Part shown: positions 12,462 to 35,959 of the stretch, one piece after another | Layout: every line of letters begins with the position of its first letter | How positions within the stretch are numbered: the stretch's first letter is position 1 | DNA from: a virus | Direction: 5' to 3' (one strand) | Virus record (IMG/VR): IMGVR_UViG_3300042904_000367 | Coordinates: 1-46,924 of that record | DNA length: 46,924 nucleotides | Made by a program: the position numbers and the translations under genes | Notes under the pieces: model-generated | Told to the model about the DNA's origin: nothing | Database searches by the model: none | The model's input: only the letters and a program-made list of their open reading frames with translations

Positions 12462-14803
12462 TGGGCGTGATCGACAGGATCAGCAAGTGGCTCAGCAAGG
12501 GCGCGGCCCCGAGCGGCATCCCCGCCGGCGCGGGCGACGCCCCGCGCACGGACCTGTGGAAGACGCAGCGCGCGCCGTCCCAGGACGACCTGCTCACGCA
12601 GTACAAGGCCGACGTCTACACGTGCGCCAACCTCAACGCCCACGTGTTCGCGTCGCAGCGGCTCCGGCTCTACGCGCTGACCGCCCCCGGCCAGGAGACC
12701 ACCAAGCGGTGGCGCACTCGGTCCGTGACCGGGGCGGAGCTCAAGCGGTTCCGCGAGACGCACAAGAACAGCCGCGCGGTCACCCAGGCCGAGGCCGTCG
12801 AGGAGCTCGTCGACCACCCCGCCCTGCGGGTGCTCGAGCGGCCCAACCCGCACATGGACCTGTTCATGCTGCTGGAGCTGACGGACCTCTACTGCGAGGT
12901 GATCGGCCGGGCCTACTGGTACAAGCAGCGCGGCGCGGACGGCGTGGTCGAGAGCATCTGGCTCGTGCCGCCCACGGAGATCAGCGCGGTCAAGGACCGC
13001 CTGGGCTTCGTCGAGTACTACAACATGGGCGCGAGCAAGACGCGCATCGAGGTCGCCGACGTCGTCATGTTCGCGTTCCCGAGCCTGACCGCCCCCTACA
13101 CCGACGGACGCTCGCCGCTCCAGGCCGGCTGGGACGCCGCCTCGCTGGAGGACAAGCGCGACTCGTACAACCACGCGACGCTGGACAACAAGGCCATGCC
13201 CGCGACACTGATCAGCCCCAAGGAGTCCATCGGCCGGATCGAGGCGGACCGCCTCGAGAAGCGGTGGTCTCGCAAGTTCCGCAAGGGCGGCAACAACGGC
13301 GTGATCGTCGCGGAGTCGGCCCTGGACATCAAGGCCCTGGTGCAGACGAACAAGGACCTGGAGATGTACCAGATGAGCGCGCTCTCCAAGGAGGAGATCG
13401 CGAACGTCTACGGCGTCCCGGTCAGCCTGATCAAGACGGCCGACGTGAACCGCGCCAACGCGGACGCCGGCCACTACCAGCACGCGCGCATGGCGATCAA
13501 GCCGCGCTGCATGCGCTTCACGTCGCGCCTGAACCTGGGCTACGCGTCGGACTTCGACGAGCGGCTCTTCTTCGGGTTCGACGACCCCGTGCCGAAGGAC
13601 GCCGAGGCCGAGGCCCTGCGCCGCAAGACGGACCTGGACTCGGGCGTGACGGTCATCAACGAGGAGCGCGCCGACGAGGGCCTCCCGCCGGTGGACTGGG
13701 GCGACCGCCCCTGGCTGCCGTTCACGGTCGCCCAGCCGGACGTCGGCGGGAACACGCAGTCCGAGAGGACGCCGGACCCCGAGCCGAAGGACGACGACGA
13801 GGACGACGAGAAAGAGAAGCCGCCCGGCAAAGACGACAAGGAGAAGGCCCTTGCAGCCTTCGACGCGCTGACCGCGTACTGGGCCAAGGAGGCCGGACCC
13901 CAGGAGACCGCCGAGAGGCTCGTCGACCTAGGCCTGACGGTCCCGCAGGTGAAGCGGGCCATGACCAGCCACACGCTGCGCGACGAGCTGCAGGACTGCT
14001 CGCACGCGGAGAAGGCACCAAAGGGAGCGGGCCCGCTGCCGAAAGGAGAGAGGATCGCTGAGATATTGCGATCGACCTTTCGCCAGCAGAGGGCCGAGGT
14101 CCTGAGGCGCGTCCGGAAGGACGTGGCCGACGGGGCCGTACAGAAGGGCCCACTGCCGCGCGCCGGCTGGACGGACCTGACGTCCTACCGCAAGGAGATG
14201 AGCCGCAAGGCCAACCCGGTCGTCGCGATGTACTACGACCAAGGAGCTAAGCAACTGCGCAGCAAGCTCAACGTCCAGGGCGACGACTGGAACATCGCGA
14301 ACCCCCAGGCCCGCCGCGCGTACGAGCGCGCCACCATGGAGTTCTGCGACGAGACCAACCGCGCGACCTCGATGCAGCTGGACGACGCCCTGGCGCGACT
14401 CAGGCAGGACCTGGCCGACGGGACCGCGTCGACCGAGAACACCGTGGCCGAGCTGACCAAGCGGGTCAACGCGGTGTTCGACAACGCCGAGAAGTACCGC
14501 GCCAAGCGAATCGCCGTGACCGAGTCGTCGCGCGCCGTCCACCAGGGCGAGGTGCTCTGGGCGGAGCAGTCCGGCCTCAAGCTGCGGATGCGCGTCCTGC
14601 TCAGCACCGACGCGTGCCCCCTGTGCGAGGAGGCCGCGGCCCAGAACGTCGACGGCGTGGAGCCGGGCGGCGAGCTCATGAACGACGGCGGCGACGGGCC
14701 CTACTCCAGCGTGACGAGCGTCCCGCTACACCCGAACTGCCAGTGCTCCCAGACCTGGGAGATCGTCGGGGAGAAGCCCGGCAAGAACGAAGAACAGGAG
14801 TGA
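12461..14803 (+). CDS. Portal protein fused to a MuF-like head domain
   Basis: ATG 12461 directly follows the previous stop. Residues 1 to about 430 fit an HK97/SPP1-type portal: DVYTCANLNAHVFASQRL near the start, a wing region, and SKEEIANVYGVPVSLI late. A disordered Asp/Glu/Lys stretch follows (about 440-470). From about 560 to 780 lies a MuF/SPP1 gp7-like domain with RIAVTESSRAVHQGE, the zinc-like DACPLCEEAA and HPNCQCSQTW. MuF is usually a separate gene, so a single 780-aa fusion is less common. The product forms the DNA entry ring and probably carries a minor head component. Confidence 0.85.
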   Translation: MGVIDRISKWLSKGAAPSGIPAGAGDAPRTDLWKTQRAPSQDDLLTQYKADVYTCANLNAHVFASQRLRLYALTAPGQETTKRWRTRSVTGAELKRFRETHKNSRAVTQAEAVEELVDHPALRVLERPNPHMDLFMLLELTDLYCEVIGRAYWYKQRGADGVVESIWLVPPTEISAVKDRLGFVEYYNMGASKTRIEVADVVMFAFPSLTAPYTDGRSPLQAGWDAASLEDKRDSYNHATLDNKAMPATLISPKESIGRIEADRLEKRWSRKFRKGGNNGVIVAESALDIKALVQTNKDLEMYQMSALSKEEIANVYGVPVSLIKTADVNRANADAGHYQHARMAIKPRCMRFTSRLNLGYASDFDERLFFGFDDPVPKDAEAEALRRKTDLDSGVTVINEERADEGLPPVDWGDRPWLPFTVAQPDVGGNTQSERTPDPEPKDDDEDDEKEKPPGKDDKEKALAAFDALTAYWAKEAGPQETAERLVDLGLTVPQVKRAMTSHTLRDELQDCSHAEKAPKGAGPLPKGERIAEILRSTFRQQRAEVLRRVRKDVADGAVQKGPLPRAGWTDLTSYRKEMSRKANPVVAMYYDQGAKQLRSKLNVQGDDWNIANPQARRAYERATMEFCDETNRATSMQLDDALARLRQDLADGTASTENTVAELTKRVNAVFDNAEKYRAKRIAVTESSRAVHQGEVLWAEQSGLKLRMRVLLSTDACPLCEEAAAQNVDGVEPGGELMNDGGDGPYSSVTSVPLHPNCQCSQTWEIVGEKPGKNEEQE

Positions 14804-14805
14804 GC

Positions 14806-15753
14806 ATGCCGCTCAAGCTGTCCGAAGTGATCGCCAAGACCTACGGCCCGGCCCAGGGCCCGTTCGGCTTCCCCATGCGCGACGACGTAGCGCGCGAGGT
14901 CGACGCCCTGGTCAAGGGCCTGCCGCAGGAGTGCAAGGACGCGGGCTTCGTCCGGGTCGTCACGACCGAGAAGGCCGGCGAGATGAACGACGACGAGCGC
15001 AGCGACGTCTCCTACGTCACGACCGACAGCGTCGACCGCGACATGGAGCTGGTCGACCCCAAGGGCCTCGACTGGTCGCAGTTCAAGAAGAACCCCATCG
15101 TGCCCTTCGGCCACGAGTACCGCGCCCTCCCCGTCGGCCGCGCCGCCTGGTGGAAGCGCGCCAGCCAGAAGATCAAGGACCGCGACGTCAGCGGCTGGAT
15201 CGGCAAGACGATCTACAGCAAGCGGCCCGACGACTGGGCCAGCGACTGGTTCCCCGACGCCGTGTGGCACATGACCAAGGAGGGGATCATCTGCGGCAAG
15301 TCGATCGGCTTCGTGCCGCTCGAGGTGAAGTACCCCACGCCCGAGGAGATCAAGAAGCGGCCGGAGCTCGCCAACGTGCGGCGCATCTGGTCGAAGGCCC
15401 TGGTCCTCGAGTGGTCGGTCGCGCCGGTCCAGAGCAACCCCGACGCGGTCGTGACCGAGGTCGGCAAGATGCGCCAGAAGGGCATCGCCGTCCCGGACAG
15501 CCTGCTCGAGGAGCTCGGCGTCCACATGCCCGACGCGCTGGAGCAGATCGATTGGGCCGCCCTCGAGGGGCGCGCCAAGGGGGCGACCGCGCAGCCGACA
15601 CCCGCCTTGCAGCCCCCGGTCGACGCGCCGGCGTTCACGACGCTGAGCGAGCTCAAGGCCTCGCTCGAGCGGCAGGTGCTGGAGCAGATGGGCGGCATCA
15701 GCCCCGCCGCCCTGGTCAAGGAGGCCATGGCGCGGAGGCACGGCCAGCTCTGA
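14806..15753 (+). CDS. Prohead maturation protease (S78-like)
   Basis: ATG 14806 follows AACAGGAG. The 316-aa protein shows the HK97 prohead protease pattern: DSVDRDMELVDPKGLDW, the catalytic His in FGHEY (residue 103), the catalytic Ser in CGKSIGFVPLE (residue 166), and VLEWSVAPVQSNPDAV. The C-terminal 100 residues are helical (LKASLERQVLEQMGG) and may act as scaffold, a common fusion. It would process the N-terminal delta domain of the capsid protein encoded next. Confidence 0.82.
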   Translation: MPLKLSEVIAKTYGPAQGPFGFPMRDDVAREVDALVKGLPQECKDAGFVRVVTTEKAGEMNDDERSDVSYVTTDSVDRDMELVDPKGLDWSQFKKNPIVPFGHEYRALPVGRAAWWKRASQKIKDRDVSGWIGKTIYSKRPDDWASDWFPDAVWHMTKEGIICGKSIGFVPLEVKYPTPEEIKKRPELANVRRIWSKALVLEWSVAPVQSNPDAVVTEVGKMRQKGIAVPDSLLEELGVHMPDALEQIDWAALEGRAKGATAQPTPALQPPVDAPAFTTLSELKASLERQVLEQMGGISPAALVKEAMARRHGQL

Positions 15754-15997: not shown

Positions 15998-17524
15998 ATG
16001 AACAAGAAGAAGACGATGCGCGGATTCCTCGCATCAGCGGCCATCCTCGCGACCTCGTTGGTCGGCGCGTTCGGCCTGGACGCAATGGACCTCGCCTACC
16101 AGAACACGCCAGGCGGCGGGACGGCCGGCGGAGGCGGTGCCGGGACGGCCACGCCGCCCGCGCCCGCGAAGAAGTGGTACCTCCTAAAGAAGGAGTTCAT
16201 GGGCAAGCCCGCCGGCGAGAAGCTCGAGATGCTCGAGACGCACGCCAAGACCCTCGTCGACGACGGCACGTTCGAGGCCGTCACCGAGGACCCGACCAAG
16301 GGCCTGGTCGACGGGGTCATGCGCTCCGTCACCGCCCGCATGCAGGAGGTCGTCGACGCGACCCTCGCCGAGGTGGTGAAGCAGGTCAAGGCCCCCGGCT
16401 TCAAGGGCGTCAACATCGAGGTCAAGGACCGCGCCAACGCGGAGAACGACTTCGGCTACGAGAACATGGGCCAGTACGCCCGCGACGTCGCGCTGCACTC
16501 CCACAAGGAGTCGCCCCGCACGTCCGACCGGATGGCGAAGCTCGTCGCGCACCAGGCGCAGACGAAGGACCCGACCGGGATGAACACGCAGACCCTGGAG
16601 GACGGCGGCATCCTGATCCCACCGACGTTCTCGCAGACCATCTTCAAGCGCGTGTTCGAGACGAGCGACATCCTGGGCGCGCTCGACACCTACACGCTGT
16701 CCGGGAACAGCATCGTGTTCCCGCGCATCAACGAGGACTCGCGCGCGACCGGCTCCCGGTCCGGCGGCCTCCGCGCGTACTGGGTCGCCGAGGGCGACAC
16801 GGTCACGGCCAGCAAGATGAAGTTCGACCGGCTGAGCCTCGCCCTGCAGAAGATGATGGCCCTCGCCTACGTCACGCAGGAGCAGCTCGACGACGGCGGC
16901 AACAGCCTCGAGAAGTACCTCATCGACGGGATCAGCGACGAGATCCAGTTCCTCACGCTGGACTCGGTCATCCGCGGCAACGGCGTCGGGAAGCCCACCG
17001 GCATCCTGAACCACGCCTCGCTGATCACGATCACCCAGGAGGCCGCCCAGGCCGCGGCCACCCTGAACGCGAACAACATCAGCAAGATGTGGTCGCGCCT
17101 CTTCCTGCGCTCGCGCGCGGGGGCCAACTGGTACATCAACCAGGACGTCGAGCCCCAGCTGGACCTGCTCGCCCTGAGCATCGGCACCGGCGGCTCCACC
17201 GTCCCGATGTACCTGCCGCCCGGCGGGCTCCGCGACCTCCCCGACGGCCGCCTCAAGGGCAAGGCCGTCAAGGTCATCGAGCACTGCGAGACCCTAGGCA
17301 CCGTCGGCGACGCGATCCTGTGGGACCCGGGGTCCTACTGCTTCGTGACCAAGGGCGGCGTCAAGACCTCCATGTCGATGCACCTCCGCTTCGACTACGA
17401 CGAGATGGTCTACAAGGTCACCTACCGCTGCAACGGCATGCCCTGGTGGCCCAAGGCCCTCACGCCGTACAAGGGCACCAACACCGTCGGCACCGCGGTC
17501 GTCATCGAGACCCGCGCCGGATAA
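15998..17524 (+). CDS. Major capsid protein (HK97 fold)
   Basis: ATG 15998 follows CACGGAGACAG. The 508-aa protein has an N-terminal helical delta region, then the HK97-like core: GGILIPPTFSQTIF, the E-loop region with IVFPRINEDS, the spine helix, and RGNGVGKPTGILN, a hallmark of the family. Cleavage probably falls between the delta domain and about residue 180. Oddly, residues 1-27 (MNKKKTMRGFLASAAILATS) look like a signal peptide or membrane anchor, followed by a Gly-rich linker. That could be a membrane-tethered assembly segment. A strong hairpin follows the stop. Confidence 0.88.
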   Translation: MNKKKTMRGFLASAAILATSLVGAFGLDAMDLAYQNTPGGGTAGGGGAGTATPPAPAKKWYLLKKEFMGKPAGEKLEMLETHAKTLVDDGTFEAVTEDPTKGLVDGVMRSVTARMQEVVDATLAEVVKQVKAPGFKGVNIEVKDRANAENDFGYENMGQYARDVALHSHKESPRTSDRMAKLVAHQAQTKDPTGMNTQTLEDGGILIPPTFSQTIFKRVFETSDILGALDTYTLSGNSIVFPRINEDSRATGSRSGGLRAYWVAEGDTVTASKMKFDRLSLALQKMMALAYVTQEQLDDGGNSLEKYLIDGISDEIQFLTLDSVIRGNGVGKPTGILNHASLITITQEAAQAAATLNANNISKMWSRLFLRSRAGANWYINQDVEPQLDLLALSIGTGGSTVPMYLPPGGLRDLPDGRLKGKAVKVIEHCETLGTVGDAILWDPGSYCFVTKGGVKTSMSMHLRFDYDEMVYKVTYRCNGMPWWPKALTPYKGTNTVGTAVVIETRAG

Positions 17525-17657: not shown

Positions 17658-18155
17658 ATGAGCGCACACAACAACATGAGCCTGCTCGAGCTGGCTCGCC
17701 CCGTGGCGGCCATCATGCCCATCTCGAAGGCGGCCTCCGCCGTCGCGAGCGGCGCGTGGATCAGCCTCAAGAACGTCAACAAGCTCGGCATCATGGTCAT
17801 GGTCGGGGCCGGCGCGGGGACGTTCAACGTCACCCTCCAGCAGGCCACCGCCGTCGCCGGCACCGGGGCCAAGGCCCTCGCCTTCACGAAGGCCGTCGTC
17901 AACTCCTCGGCCATCGCGGCCGACTCGTTCACGCGGACCACCGTGGTGGCCAACAGCCTCCCCCTCACCGCCAACGACGTCGCCCTGATCGACATCGACC
18001 CCGCCGACCTCGACATCAACAACGACTTCGACTGCGTGCAGGTCGTCGTCACCGAGTCCGGCGGCGCGTCCGCGCAGCTCGTCTCGGCGCACTACATCGT
18101 CAAGTCCGGCAAGGTCGAGAGCCTGGACGCCGCGCCGTCCCACATCCTCGACTGA
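17658..18155 (+). CDS. Probable head decoration protein, 165 aa
   Basis: ATG 17658 has AGAAGGAGC upstream. It follows the capsid gene after a hairpin, the usual site of decoration proteins. The protein is Ala/Val/Thr-rich with a mostly beta pattern, including a long hydrophobic strand (LGIMVMVGAGAGTFNVTLQQ) and an acidic loop (DIDPADLDINNDFD). There is no membrane signal or cysteine cluster. Role inferred from position and composition. Confidence 0.6.
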   Translation: MSAHNNMSLLELARPVAAIMPISKAASAVASGAWISLKNVNKLGIMVMVGAGAGTFNVTLQQATAVAGTGAKALAFTKAVVNSSAIAADSFTRTTVVANSLPLTANDVALIDIDPADLDINNDFDCVQVVVTESGGASAQLVSAHYIVKSGKVESLDAAPSHILD

Positions 18156-18237: not shown

Positions 18238-18888
18238 ATGCGCTACAACCTCATCATAGTCGCCCTCATGGTCATGGTCCTGTCGGCCCTCACCGGGTGC
18301 GGCGGCGCGCCCAAGGCCCCGCCGACGTACCGGCCCAGTGAGAAGCTCGTGACCGCCCCGGTCCACCAGGCGCAGACGGACAGCGCGTCCGCGAAGGCGT
18401 ACATCGACGCGGCGGAGGCCCTGACCCAGCAGGTGCTGGACGGGGCCAAGGCCACCGGCGACCGCATCGCCATAGCCCTGCTCGAGGGCGTGTCGCTCAA
18501 CCACGGCAAGGCCACCGAGAAGCAGGGAGCCGTCGAGGCCAAGATGAGCCAGACGCTCGTCGAAAACGGCCAGCTCAAGGCGGAGGCCGTCGAGGCCGTC
18601 GAGGCTGAGCAGGCGCACGCCCGCGCGTGGGAGGACCGGTACACGAAGCTCGACGGCAAGTGGTACGTCCGGTGGGGACGCTGGATCGAGGCCGTCGTGT
18701 TCTGGCTCGTGGTCGGCTGGGCCGCCGCCGGGCTCGCCTCCGTGTTCCTGGGCTTCCAGCCGCTGGGCATGCTGCAGAAGCTGTCCGGCTTCATCGTCCA
18801 CCTCCTCCCGCTCGGGAACGTCTGGGTGTGGATCGAGGACCTGATCAAGTGGGTGCGCGGCGCGCCCGCTCAGAAGCCCGAGCCATGA
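18238..18888 (+). CDS. Unimolecular spanin candidate: lipoprotein with C-terminal membrane span
   Basis: ATG 18238 follows AAGGAGCAAGC. Residues 1-21 form a lipoprotein signal ending in LSALTGC (lipidated Cys 21). Residues 25-140 are a helical periplasmic segment rich in Ala, Glu and Lys. Residues 145-167 form a membrane span (VVFWLVVGWAAAGLASVF), with an amphipathic end. Outer-membrane lipid anchor plus inner-membrane span in one chain is the layout of u-spanins, which fuse the two membranes at lysis. Position inside the head gene block is unusual. The 82-base gap before it holds an imperfect CCGGCC/GGCCGG hairpin. Confidence 0.6.
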   Translation: MRYNLIIVALMVMVLSALTGCGGAPKAPPTYRPSEKLVTAPVHQAQTDSASAKAYIDAAEALTQQVLDGAKATGDRIAIALLEGVSLNHGKATEKQGAVEAKMSQTLVENGQLKAEAVEAVEAEQAHARAWEDRYTKLDGKWYVRWGRWIEAVVFWLVVGWAAAGLASVFLGFQPLGMLQKLSGFIVHLLPLGNVWVWIEDLIKWVRGAPAQKPEP

Positions 18889-18947: not shown

Positions 18948-20474
18948 ATGCCGAAGCCGAAGCTGAACCCGTTCGCCCTGGCCCTCCGGGCCCTCATGCT
19001 CGCGTCGCTGGCGAAGGACCCGCGGCCCGCTCAGGAGCGCGACCAGCACCAGAAGAAGCGCGGCAAGAAGCGCACCACCATCGCCAGCGTCGAGCTCGAG
19101 CCGACCGCCGGGGCGGAGCTGCCCACGAAGGACGTGGACCTCAAGAACCCGTCGGACATGGGGCGAACCCGCTGGGGCATCATGACGTGGGGCGCGCTGC
19201 TCCGCGACGCCGTGCTCCAGGGCCAGCTGCTGGACTGCTACTTGCTCGCCGCCATCCTGGGCATCATCCAGATCGACCCCATGTTCTTCGACGACGTCTT
19301 CGAGCAGATCGACGACAAGACCGTGGTCGTCAAGTACGTCATCCGCGGATACGTCATCCGGATCAAGGTGACTCTCGAGGTCTCCATCGAGTTCAACAAC
19401 CCGAACGACAACGACATCCGCGTGGAGCTGATCGAGAAGACCTACGGCTTCGCGCGCCGCACCGTCGAGAGCATGCACGCCGCCGACTGGGGCAACGGCA
19501 CCGAGGCGGGCATGGCGTGGGGCCTAACCACCACCAAGGCGGTCCAGTCCGCCGAGCGCACCCCGGCCTTCGTGGACGCGATCCACCGCCGCGACGTGAC
19601 CCCGCGCAGCGGGTGGTACGTGACCCTGCTCAGCGCGCCGAGCGCGACGCTCATCACCTACAGCCACGCGTACACCACGGACCGGGTCAAGTTCGCGAGC
19701 CTGCTGCCCGACAACGTCGTGCTCATCAACCCGTGGGCCGGGGCCGCCGACTGCGTGGTCTCGGTCCAGGCCATCAAGGACAGCAAGCAGTTCGCCGCGA
19801 TCTACTACCTGTTCGTCCCGCCCCCGGCCCAGCGGGTGCTCAAGTCGCCGCCGCGCGTGGTGCGCCTCACCGGCGACGCCAACGGCGACGGCCACGTGGA
19901 CTTCAGCGACTTCACCGTCCTGAGCCAGAACTACGGCCGCACGACCACGGCCACCCCGGTCGGCCAGCGACACAAGCTGGGCGACTTCAACGAGGACGGG
20001 GTCGTCGACTTCAGCGACTTCGTCCTCCTGTCCAGGAACTACGCGACGCACGCTGGCAACATGGAACCGCTGCCGGCCAACTTCCCACCCAAGCAGGAGG
20101 AGACCCCCGTGGCAGTCAAGCTCGAAATCACCAGCCCCGCCTTCGCGCCTGGCGCGACACACGTGACCGTGACCGGCAAGCCGGGGACCGCGGTCGCGCT
20201 AGAGCTGGTCACCGACGCCGAGTCCGTGACCATGACCACCCCCCGCAGCTCGCCCCACCCGGTCGCCCTGACTAACGGCGCGCACAAGGGGTGGATCAGC
20301 ACCATCGGCCAGGAGCCGCTGACTGTCACGGTCACGGCGCGCCGCGGCGCCGAGACGACGGCCAGGACGATCACGCTCGCACCGAGCGCGCCGGTCACCG
20401 AGCCCAAGCCGGTCCGGGACTACCAGGACGTCCGGGTCTTCTTCGACGGGCGCGCGCCCGTCAACCTCCCCTGA
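18948..20474 (+). CDS. Calpain-like cysteine protease with two dockerin-type repeats
   Basis: ATG 18948 follows CCAGGAGATC. The 508-aa protein has a calpain (C2) core. GQLLDCYLLAAI supplies the nucleophile Cys 97. ELIEKTYGFAR matches the EKAYAK segment. YSHAYTTD supplies His 240, and VLINPWAG supplies Asn 261, so the full triad is present. Residues 309-365 hold two dockerin type I repeats (GDANGDGHVDFSDF and GDFNEDGVVDFSDF), calcium-binding loops typical of planctomycete secreted proteins. An Ig-like beta domain follows. No signal peptide is seen, so it may be virion-borne. It could cleave surface protein at entry or capsid/tail proteins at assembly. Confidence 0.8.
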   Translation: MPKPKLNPFALALRALMLASLAKDPRPAQERDQHQKKRGKKRTTIASVELEPTAGAELPTKDVDLKNPSDMGRTRWGIMTWGALLRDAVLQGQLLDCYLLAAILGIIQIDPMFFDDVFEQIDDKTVVVKYVIRGYVIRIKVTLEVSIEFNNPNDNDIRVELIEKTYGFARRTVESMHAADWGNGTEAGMAWGLTTTKAVQSAERTPAFVDAIHRRDVTPRSGWYVTLLSAPSATLITYSHAYTTDRVKFASLLPDNVVLINPWAGAADCVVSVQAIKDSKQFAAIYYLFVPPPAQRVLKSPPRVVRLTGDANGDGHVDFSDFTVLSQNYGRTTTATPVGQRHKLGDFNEDGVVDFSDFVLLSRNYATHAGNMEPLPANFPPKQEETPVAVKLEITSPAFAPGATHVTVTGKPGTAVALELVTDAESVTMTTPRSSPHPVALTNGAHKGWISTIGQEPLTVTVTARRGAETTARTITLAPSAPVTEPKPVRDYQDVRVFFDGRAPVNLP

Positions 20475-20522: not shown

Positions 20523-20822
20523 ATGCGGATCATCAAGGCAGGAACCACCACCATCGCGGCCACTGACGTGGCGCAGCGACTCGTGCCGGACGCGGCCATC
20601 ACCAACAAGCGGATAACGGGGTGCCTGGTGCGAGCCTGCAAGGTTGCAGCCACCGGGAACACGGCCGACGCCCGCGTCGGGGCCAGCTCCGACGACGAGG
20701 ACATACAGCACCTGGTCGCGGCAGACGATCGTCGCGGTTTTATCATACCGCACGATCAGTCAGGTGAGCTCTACGTTATCGGTACCATCAACGACGTTAT
20801 CGGCTGGGTGTTGTACAACTAA
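20523..20822 (+). CDS. Hypothetical protein, 99 aa
   Basis: ATG 20523 follows GAGCAGGAGCAG. The protein is short, beta-rich, without motifs, and resembles small phage structural proteins. Base composition changes inside it: up to about 20705 codons are GC-ending, but afterwards AT-ending codons (GGT, TTT, ATC, ATA, GTT) become frequent. The left boundary of the imported 20.7-22.65 kb segment therefore falls within this gene. Confidence 0.6.
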   Translation: MRIIKAGTTTIAATDVAQRLVPDAAITNKRITGCLVRACKVAATGNTADARVGASSDDEDIQHLVAADDRRGFIIPHDQSGELYVIGTINDVIGWVLYN

Positions 20823-20869
20823 ACCTTGTTCCACTAATACCGCGGTGGCGACGCAGTAAGGACCATTTC

Positions 20870-22654
20870 ATGTCAACCCTATACTTTGGATCGATTGGTA
20901 ACGCGCAGGGAGACGGCTCTCGGGCTAACCCATGGGACGTCGCGACCGCCATCGCCGCCTTTACCAACGGTAATACTTACCTCTGCATCGACACGGTCAG
21001 TAGTGGCACCCGCGCCCAGCTCTCCCAGGTCATGACGATCCCCAGCGACGTGATCGTGGGATCGGCTGGCGGCTACCTCGATCGAGCCTGCTACCAGCTC
21101 AGCATCATCGTCGCCGCAAATCAGTTCACGAAGACGGCCGGCCGCACCAACGTCTACGAAACAACCTCCGCGTTCCGCGAACCAGGCAACAACAACTCCT
21201 GTTCCGTGATACGGGACAACTCACGCGCGCTCACGCACGTCACCGGCACCTACTCAGCAGACGCCGTCGCGACTGTTGACTCAACCCCCGGTTCGTTCTG
21301 GACCGGTCCCACGTCTGCTGGTGACGCAACCGTCATCACGCTGATTCATCCGATCGACAGCACCGATCCCCGCTCCGATGGAAAAGAATACGACCGCTCC
21401 CAGCTTTTCGGCACCACGCAATCCGATACCAACGCCATAGTCATTCAGTCCGGAGGCATCCTCCAAGATTCCAACTGTTACGGCGTGATGTGGCGAACCC
21501 CCGCGGGCAGCAGCACCACCGGCGTCAACGGCTACATGGTGATGAACGGCGGCGGCTCGATCGTGCGACGTTGCTTCTTTGAGACCGGCGACAAGCACGT
21601 CGTCGGCAACATCAACGGCGCGACCGACGACATCACGATCATTGAGGACGTGCAGGCCGAGCAGTGCAGCCCTTACGCCGCTGGCGCCGGATCCGCAACG
21701 ACGTTCGTCGCCTACGACGACAACGCCGCCCGCACCGGACGCATCGTAATTTTTCGCCGCTGCCGCACCAATAAAAACCTCGGCCTCATCGGATCGGCGG
21801 TTGGCACAACTAATATGTCGCAGCCCGCCATCTTTTCGCACAACGCCGGCTCGGGGACGCAGTTCAAATCGATGCTGGTCGACGCCTGCTACTTCCCCGG
21901 CCAGTCCGTGACGCCCGACGCCCCGGTCACCAATCCGATGGTTATCCGCCGCACGCGGTTCGGATCGTGCGGCACGCTGAACGCGGGTCGCAAGTGCTTC
22001 ATCGACATGTGCTACATGGACGTCTCCACGCCGCAGAACAACGGCGGCACCTACTACATCACGCGGACGGTCATCGCCAACACCATCCCCGCCAACGCCA
22101 ACGGCACCTTCGTTTTCGACCATTGCTCCCTGGACCTGGCGCCCTTCGGCGCACCCTTCACGTCGATCAGCCGGAACGGCACCATCTCTGTCACCGTCAA
22201 GAACAGCATCATTAAGGCCCAATCATTGCTAGTGAACAACCTCGCCGCTGCCACCGACACCTTTGTCAGCACCAACAATCACTGGATCGGCGCCGCCCAC
22301 CCCAACAACCTTTGCGTCCACACGGCCAGCGGCTACTCGGTGAACGGCTACTGCACCCTCGCTCAGATGGTCACCAATGGATTCGACACCGGGTCCACCA
22401 CCGCCGCCAGCTTCACCTGGGAATCGGATTATCGATTGCCCACGCCCACAACGCAGCGATCGATCGAAGGTGTCGACATCGGCGCTTTCCCCTACGGTGA
22501 TGCTCCATCACCAGCGGTCAACGGCGTACTTACCGGGCGTCGCTATGGTTCCGGTAACGCGGATGAGGGCATAGTAGACGTAGACGCCATTGAGACTGCT
22601 GCCACGCTGGTTGGGTCTACCAAAGGCCGCGGCTCCCTGCACCTGCACCTCTGA
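20870..22654 (+). CDS. Parallel beta-helix surface protein, imported segment
   Basis: ATG 20870; only a weak AAGGACC precedes it. The 594-aa protein has the alternating Asn/Gly/Ser/Thr and short hydrophobic strands of right-handed parallel beta-helices (pectate-lyase-like). It ends in EGVDIGAFPYG, the closing signature often seen in such secreted proteins. Repeated Cys-x-F turns (RRCFFETG, DACYFPG, DMCYMD) stack through it. GC is visibly lower and codon use differs from all neighbours. Probably a host-range adhesin or depolymerase acquired by transfer; catalytic residues cannot be assigned. Confidence 0.7.
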   Translation: MSTLYFGSIGNAQGDGSRANPWDVATAIAAFTNGNTYLCIDTVSSGTRAQLSQVMTIPSDVIVGSAGGYLDRACYQLSIIVAANQFTKTAGRTNVYETTSAFREPGNNNSCSVIRDNSRALTHVTGTYSADAVATVDSTPGSFWTGPTSAGDATVITLIHPIDSTDPRSDGKEYDRSQLFGTTQSDTNAIVIQSGGILQDSNCYGVMWRTPAGSSTTGVNGYMVMNGGGSIVRRCFFETGDKHVVGNINGATDDITIIEDVQAEQCSPYAAGAGSATTFVAYDDNAARTGRIVIFRRCRTNKNLGLIGSAVGTTNMSQPAIFSHNAGSGTQFKSMLVDACYFPGQSVTPDAPVTNPMVIRRTRFGSCGTLNAGRKCFIDMCYMDVSTPQNNGGTYYITRTVIANTIPANANGTFVFDHCSLDLAPFGAPFTSISRNGTISVTVKNSIIKAQSLLVNNLAAATDTFVSTNNHWIGAAHPNNLCVHTASGYSVNGYCTLAQMVTNGFDTGSTTAASFTWESDYRLPTPTTQRSIEGVDIGAFPYGDAPSPAVNGVLTGRRYGSGNADEGIVDVDAIETAATLVGSTKGRGSLHLHL

Positions 22655-22667
22655 CACGGACGGGCAC

Positions 22668-23297
22668 ATGCCACAGTACACAGCGACACCCCTGCTCGCG
22701 GACGCCGCGCGCGTCAAGCGGCTCCTGGCCGCCCATGGCGCGTTCAGCGACGAGCTCATCGCCGACCAGCTAGCGGCCGCCAGCAACATGGCCCGCAACT
22801 GGTGCAACCGCCAGTTCAGCTCCGCGACGTACACCGACGAGGCGTACGACGGGGACGGCGAGAACGAGCTGATGCTCAACGAGTTCCCCGTGACGGCCCT
22901 GACCTCCGTCCGCGCCCTCGACGAGTCGGCCGACGAGGTCGCGCTGGTCGTGGCGGACGACGTGATCATGACCGCGCGCGACGCGCAGATGGGCCGGATA
23001 CGGATCAACCCGCGGTCGACCACCGCCCTGTTCCGCCGCTTCCCCCAGGGGGAGGCCAACGTGCTGGTGACGTACACCGCGGGCTTCGCCGAGATACCCG
23101 ACGCCGTCCAGGAGGGAGTCGCGCTCTGGGCGGCCGACCTGTGCCTGCAGCTCAAGCGAGACCCCTCCGTGGCGTCGGAGACCCTGGGCAAGCACTCCTA
23201 CACGAACCGCACCGCGTCGGGCTCGTCGTTCTCCGGGCGCGCCGAGCCGCCCGACAACGTCAAGCTCGCACTCGGCTACTACAGGAACCCACTATGA
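22668..23297 (+). CDS. Head-tail connector (HK97 gp6-like), 209 aa
   Basis: ATG 22668; an upstream in-frame start at 22590 would lie in the imported gene and is rejected. The helical N-terminus (VKRLLAAHGAFSDELIADQL), then FPVTALTSV and VLVTYTAGFAEIPDAVQEGVALWAA are the standard features of phage gp6/DnaT-type connector proteins. It forms a ring under the portal. The start of the next gene overlaps its stop. Confidence 0.78.
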   Translation: MPQYTATPLLADAARVKRLLAAHGAFSDELIADQLAAASNMARNWCNRQFSSATYTDEAYDGDGENELMLNEFPVTALTSVRALDESADEVALVVADDVIMTARDAQMGRIRINPRSTTALFRRFPQGEANVLVTYTAGFAEIPDAVQEGVALWAADLCLQLKRDPSVASETLGKHSYTNRTASGSSFSGRAEPPDNVKLALGYYRNPL

Positions 23298-35887: not shown

Positions 35888-35959
35888 TCGGAGGTAGCTC
35901 AGCGGTAGAGCTTCGGTGCCACCCACCGACGGTCGCGGGTTCGAGTCCCGCCCTCCGCA
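35888..35959 (+). tRNA. tRNA-like gene, anticodon loop noncanonical
   Basis: A full cloverleaf can be drawn. Acceptor 35888-35894 pairs with 35952-35958 (six pairs plus a T-C mismatch at the end). The D arm is GCTC/GAGC with a GG loop. The anticodon stem TCGGT/ACCGA is perfect, a 5-base variable region follows, and the T arm GCGGG/CCCGC has loop TTCGAGT. Loop 35918-35924 is GCCACCC, giving anticodon CAC (Val) by position. However, base 33 is C instead of the near-universal U, and base 37 is C. No CCA end is encoded. It may be degenerate, decoy-like or mis-phased. Confidence 0.65.

Follow-up and report, generated by a model that had tools for sequence, protein, structure and literature searches.

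A divergent calpain-type protease joined to a dockerin among the late structural genes of a likely Planctomycetota phage

Results

The late head operon of a tailed phage contains, between the capsid and decoration genes and the head-tail adaptor, a gene whose product is identified by profile comparison as a very divergent calpain-family (C2) cysteine protease joined to a dockerin. Both modules are known already; by these comparisons it is their union and the viral setting that are new, the two being joined only in this protein among the viruses and bacteria searched and the matches listed. The window analysed is an entire IMG/VR virus record of 46,924 bases rather than a piece of a chromosome. 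The features of the gene and its surroundings are collected in Table 1.

Table 1. Position of the calpain-dockerin gene, its domains and its neighbours in the window
Feature	Position	Strand	Basis
Probable prohead (head maturation) protease	14656..15753	+	phrog_1028/phrog_80, weak
HK97-fold major capsid protein	15998..17524	+	Phage_capsid E=1e-34
Post-capsid small decoration-like protein, left border of variable site	17658..18155	+	phrog_28483 E=1.2e-7
Upstream lipoprotein, C-terminal hydrophobic segment, spanin-like	18238..18888	+	lipobox LTGC, hydropathy
Calpain-dockerin gene (P0001), 508 aa + stop	18948..20474	+	ORF list; GC3 0.97, like core phage genes
N-terminal leader MPKPKLNPFALALRALMLASLA, weak signal-peptide-like, one Arg in hydrophobic core	18948..19013	+	hydropathy
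Calpain (C2) catalytic domain, ~residues 62-290	19131..19817	+	Pfam, alignment, hhalign, HMM
Motif QGQLLDC: oxyanion-hole Gln91 and nucleophile Cys97 (19236-19238)	19218..19238	+	invariant Q, G, C columns
Catalytic His240 (SHAYT)	19665..19667	+	invariant column
Catalytic Asn261 in NPW motif	19728..19736	+	invariant N-P columns
Type I dockerin, residues 309-363, calcium loops 310-321 and 346-357	19872..20036	+	Dockerin_1 E=3.6e-9
C-terminal beta-prone region	20100..20471	+	no Pfam match E<=10
99-aa protein in same insertion	20523..20822	+	GC3 0.79
594-aa beta-helix-like protein in same insertion	20870..22654	+	GC3 0.78; weak Disaggr_assoc E=0.05
Head-tail adaptor, right border of variable site	22590..23297	+	phrog_442 E=3.4e-28

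The calpain domain

The reading frame given in the preliminary description is correct, with an ATG at 18948 and a good ribosome site (AGGAG) six bases upstream. Its numbering of the triad (Cys97, His240, Asn261) is exact and all three residues are on invariant calpain columns; the EKTYGFAR segment is present as described and aligns with the calpain EKAYA motif. In the alignment with 16 genomic calpains the invariant columns are Q91, G92, C97, P111, E163, G182, H240, Y242, N261 and P262. The usual Gly before Asp96 of the Cys motif is Leu in the phage protein, the near-invariant Trp preceding the EK motif is missing and the identity to the aligned calpain relatives is 13-21%.

The match to Pfam Peptidase_C2 (E=0.0024) is under the curated cut-off of the family. 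A hhalign comparison with a profile of seven calpains, built without the phage protein, gave E=5.4e-6 (probability 86%). With an HMM of 17 calpains, also without the phage protein, the score was 33.9 bits (E=2.6e-9), while the top of 2,000 shuffles reached 5.8 bits. Because the HMM score beats all shuffles and the hhalign match is of this strength, the predicted calpain identity is well beyond chance. In the calpain tree the phage protein is nearest the viral calpains L176 and L178, a position that is unreliable because its end branch is very long (4.8 changes per column). AlphaFold2 models of the full protein and of the catalytic domain, made with only 3-4 sequences each, had pLDDT of 34 and 32, too low to lend support to the fold. 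The GC3 of the gene agrees with that of the adjoining core genes, and an assembly artefact was rejected on this ground.

Domains outside the protease

The two dockerin-type calcium repeats reported earlier are borne out. The Dockerin_1 match exceeds the Pfam cut-off and both loops have D/N/D/D/D at positions 1, 3, 5, 9 and 12, which are perfect calcium ligands, as predicted for a dockerin of type I. The duplicated calcium loop and the canonical ligands are shared with the type I dockerins of cellulosomes and Planctomycetota (PF00404), and the identity to Planctomycetota dockerins is up to 51%; the phage dockerin differs in being joined to a protease and in being phage-encoded.

The N-terminal leader is predicted to be a poor signal peptide with Arg in its core, which counts against an extracellular reading, and its hydropathy is comparable to that of the leaders of secreted Planctomycetota calpains. 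An Ig-like domain, described previously at the C-terminal end, was not recovered, as nothing in Pfam, Ig-like families included, matches residues ~385-508 at E<=10.

Calpains and dockerins in other genomes

The calpain comparison set consisted of 18 places in 13 of 392 Planctomycetota genomes, two calpains from a Schlesneria MAG outside the sample and three viral ones. A single Planctomycetes calpain is included in Rawlings' 2015 survey (PMC4631099). The catalytic Gln-Cys-His-Asn and the surrounding motifs are common to the phage protein and the bacterial calpains (MEROPS C2, Pfam PF00648; e.g. Porphyromonas gingivalis Tpr and the Planctomycetota homologues), but the phage protein is no more than 21% identical to these and departs from them in the Leu of the Cys motif. 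Most Planctomycetota calpains start with a signal-peptide-like leader (read by eye), whereas the phage leader is only weakly of this kind. The C-terminal dockerin of the phage protein is found in none of the 18 Planctomycetota calpains examined (16 by Pfam, 2 by eye; places L163 and L170 left out), and a literature search on calpain and dockerin together gave nothing relevant. The preliminary description thus stands in recognising a phage calpain-type protease with a dockerin, complete in its catalytic residues and located in the late structural region, but not in taking the fusion to be known in Planctomycetes.

Single-sequence scans for relatives of the protein found none in the viral contigs, the genome contigs or 50,697 phage records, and a second calpain profile scan of the viral contigs had no match. 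The viral calpains L176-L178 are likewise virus-encoded calpain domains, but they are canonical, without dockerin, and have another gene neighbourhood, adjoining a DNA ligase-like gene. Two of them (L178:7557-8660 and L177:2785-3696) open with an IENLEPR stretch, which we take to resemble a Planctomycetota export motif. Viral calpains are apparently rare, and the phages of Planctomycetota are almost unstudied.

Dockerins, known chiefly from cellulosomes, recur in phage proteins, a portal included. At least five viral dockerin proteins were found by profile scan, among them L186 (940 aa) and the portal-like L187; those of L186-L189 have the dockerin in common with the protein described here but are without a calpain domain. 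The portal-like ORF L187:2-1795 (phrog_2662) has a dockerin and EF-hand repeats at its C-terminus, that is, a dockerin on a virion protein. In L188:5028-6008 an N-terminal dockerin precedes what may be a trypsin-like domain (GGGVLISPRHILYTEHY ... DSGNP), and the same contig bears a collagen-like fibre ORF. The ORF L185:2886-3653, also on a viral contig, combines a dockerin with a leader and with a beta region that looks cohesin-like by eye but has no Pfam match.

The phage genome and its likely host

Profile searches identify the genome as that of a tailed phage with terminase, portal, probable prohead protease, HK97-type capsid, decoration-like protein, head-tail adaptor and tape measure. The placement of the calpain-dockerin gene among head and connector genes, as described earlier, agrees with the phrog and Pfam matches of its neighbours. 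After the head and tail module come genes for an SNF2-type helicase, a primase, a thymidylate synthase and a family A DNA polymerase, and these replication genes suggest a lytic phage. A single-sequence scan with the portal had no match.

A search with a capsid profile gave 12 relatives in bacterial genome contigs. Planctomycetota are likely to be the host, because eight of these 12 relatives belong to this phylum, mostly to Schlesneria MAGs. One phage tRNA-Val is encoded at window 35888-35959 (anticodon CAC); its best matches among Planctomycetota tRNAs are ~80% identical and did not pinpoint the host. At its start (window 15998-16090) the major capsid protein has a leader resembling a signal peptide, MNKKKTMRGFLASAAILATSLVGAFG, which is absent in the nearest relative, L004.

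A variable site in the head operon

The stretch between the decoration-like gene, to which 39 ORFs in related loci are homologous, and the head-tail adaptor varies across related phages. In L004, with a capsid 54% identical, the site holds a lipoprotein gene alone, at the same position. A beta-helix-like protein is found at the site in L086, and a beta-helix-like together with a glycosyltransferase-like protein in L039 (all labels by eye, without family match), while in L002 and L003 the site is empty or nearly so. A search of 50 related virus records for each domain, in sets identical but for one record, gave neither a calpain nor a dockerin; this absence is only indicative because many of the records are fragments.

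The two genes downstream of the calpain-dockerin gene belong to the same insertion. The 99-aa protein has no homologue in related loci and the 594-aa protein no match in phage records. From the difference in GC3 (0.97 against 0.79 and 0.78), the calpain gene looks long resident, whereas the genes at window 20523-22654, with a GC3 below that of the remaining phage genes, are probably recent acquisitions.

Possible function

On balance we favour a calpain-type protease, expressed from the late structural genes of a likely Planctomycetota phage, that would act outside the cytoplasm, held by its dockerin, and cut host surface proteins. That the domain is catalytically active is likely, given the residues kept. 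Extracellular or virion-borne action is rather probable, because secreted-type calpains occur in Planctomycetota, the dockerin is calcium-dependent and the gene position is late. The activity, location, partner and substrate that we infer all derive from sequence comparison.

The protein would be made along with the late structural genes and would most likely act outside the cytoplasm, on the virion or when released at lysis. Calcium would fold the dockerin there, and the dockerin would tether the enzyme to its partner, which may be a complex on the host surface that bears cohesins or some other protein of the virion. Cleavage of host surface proteins by the calpain domain could then help the phage to get to the cell or out of it. 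A virion protein could equally be the partner, since the dockerin-bearing portal of L187 suggests this.

Host cohesins as the partner are plausible, though less likely than not. The preliminary description had proposed looking for cohesins in candidate hosts, and of the 246 Planctomycetota genomes sampled, 29 have such domains above the cut-off; the scanned ORFs of the phage itself showed none. Many Planctomycetota dockerins sit in giant proteins, which weighs against the reading favoured here. For freshwater Planctomycetes a proteolytic cohesin-dockerin surface complex named the 'planctosome' has been put forward (Andrei et al. 2019, PMC6461901). It would hold dockerin-bearing peptidases on a cohesin scaffold at the cell surface, and the phage protein is likewise a dockerin-bearing peptidase. 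The planctosome peptidases are however host-encoded metallopeptidases (M12B and M14) and the complex is itself hypothetical, whereas the phage enzyme is of calpain type and phage-encoded. It is unlikely, though worth stating, that the protease plugs into this hypothetical complex and makes the scaffold a landing or release site; if it did, the virus would be turning cohesin-dockerin recognition to its own use in infection. Through such a dockerin-bearing phage protease one could approach both the role of the many Planctomycetota dockerins and cohesins and the question of how phages pass through, or out of, the protein-rich surfaces of these bacteria.

The surface-cleaving protease favoured here may be virion-borne or released, and a narrower version of it is a lysis-stage enzyme absent from the virion. 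Together with the adjoining spanin-like lipoprotein it would weaken a protein-rich envelope or matrix at release. This restriction to lysis is doubtful. The lipoprotein has a C-terminal hydrophobic segment and the same position in L004, and the scanned phage ORFs include no recognisable endolysin; the family matches of the lipoprotein, those to spanins among them, are however weak (LysC E=0.17, Rz-like E=0.019), and in L004 it is kept without a calpain.

It is less probable still that the protein is a decoration or adhesin on the capsid or connector, with adhesion through the dockerin and the C-terminal beta domain as its main job and proteolysis secondary or lost. The location of the gene after that of the decoration-like protein, the beta-helix-like proteins that L039 and L086 encode at this site and the dockerin on the L187 portal are consistent with such a role, but the retention of all catalytic residues despite great divergence would be unexpected in a pure adhesin.

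Two further explanations are improbable. The gene could be cargo taken from a host (a moron), changing host physiology, such as extracellular protein digestion or defence, and not serving infection, as secreted-type calpains are encoded in Planctomycetota genomes and the gene is absent from related phages. Against this, host homologues are all distant (end branch 4.8, best identity 20%), the GC3 is that of core phage genes and the replication genes suggest a lytic phage. There is a similarly slim chance that the domain is a calpain remnant, an inactive papain-like scaffold. The Leu before Asp96, the missing Trp and the very long branch point in this direction, but Gln, Cys, His, Asn, Glu163 and Gly182 are all kept. 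Inactive calpains usually lose the Cys, whereas Cys97 is present here.

A role as the head maturation protease of the phage, suggested by the location in the head gene cluster, is very improbable. The step already has a candidate enzyme, a probable prohead protease encoded where such genes usually lie, upstream of the capsid gene, and related phages without calpain have strong homologues of it beside their capsid gene. The calpain would thus not be needed for this step, and the idea was rejected.
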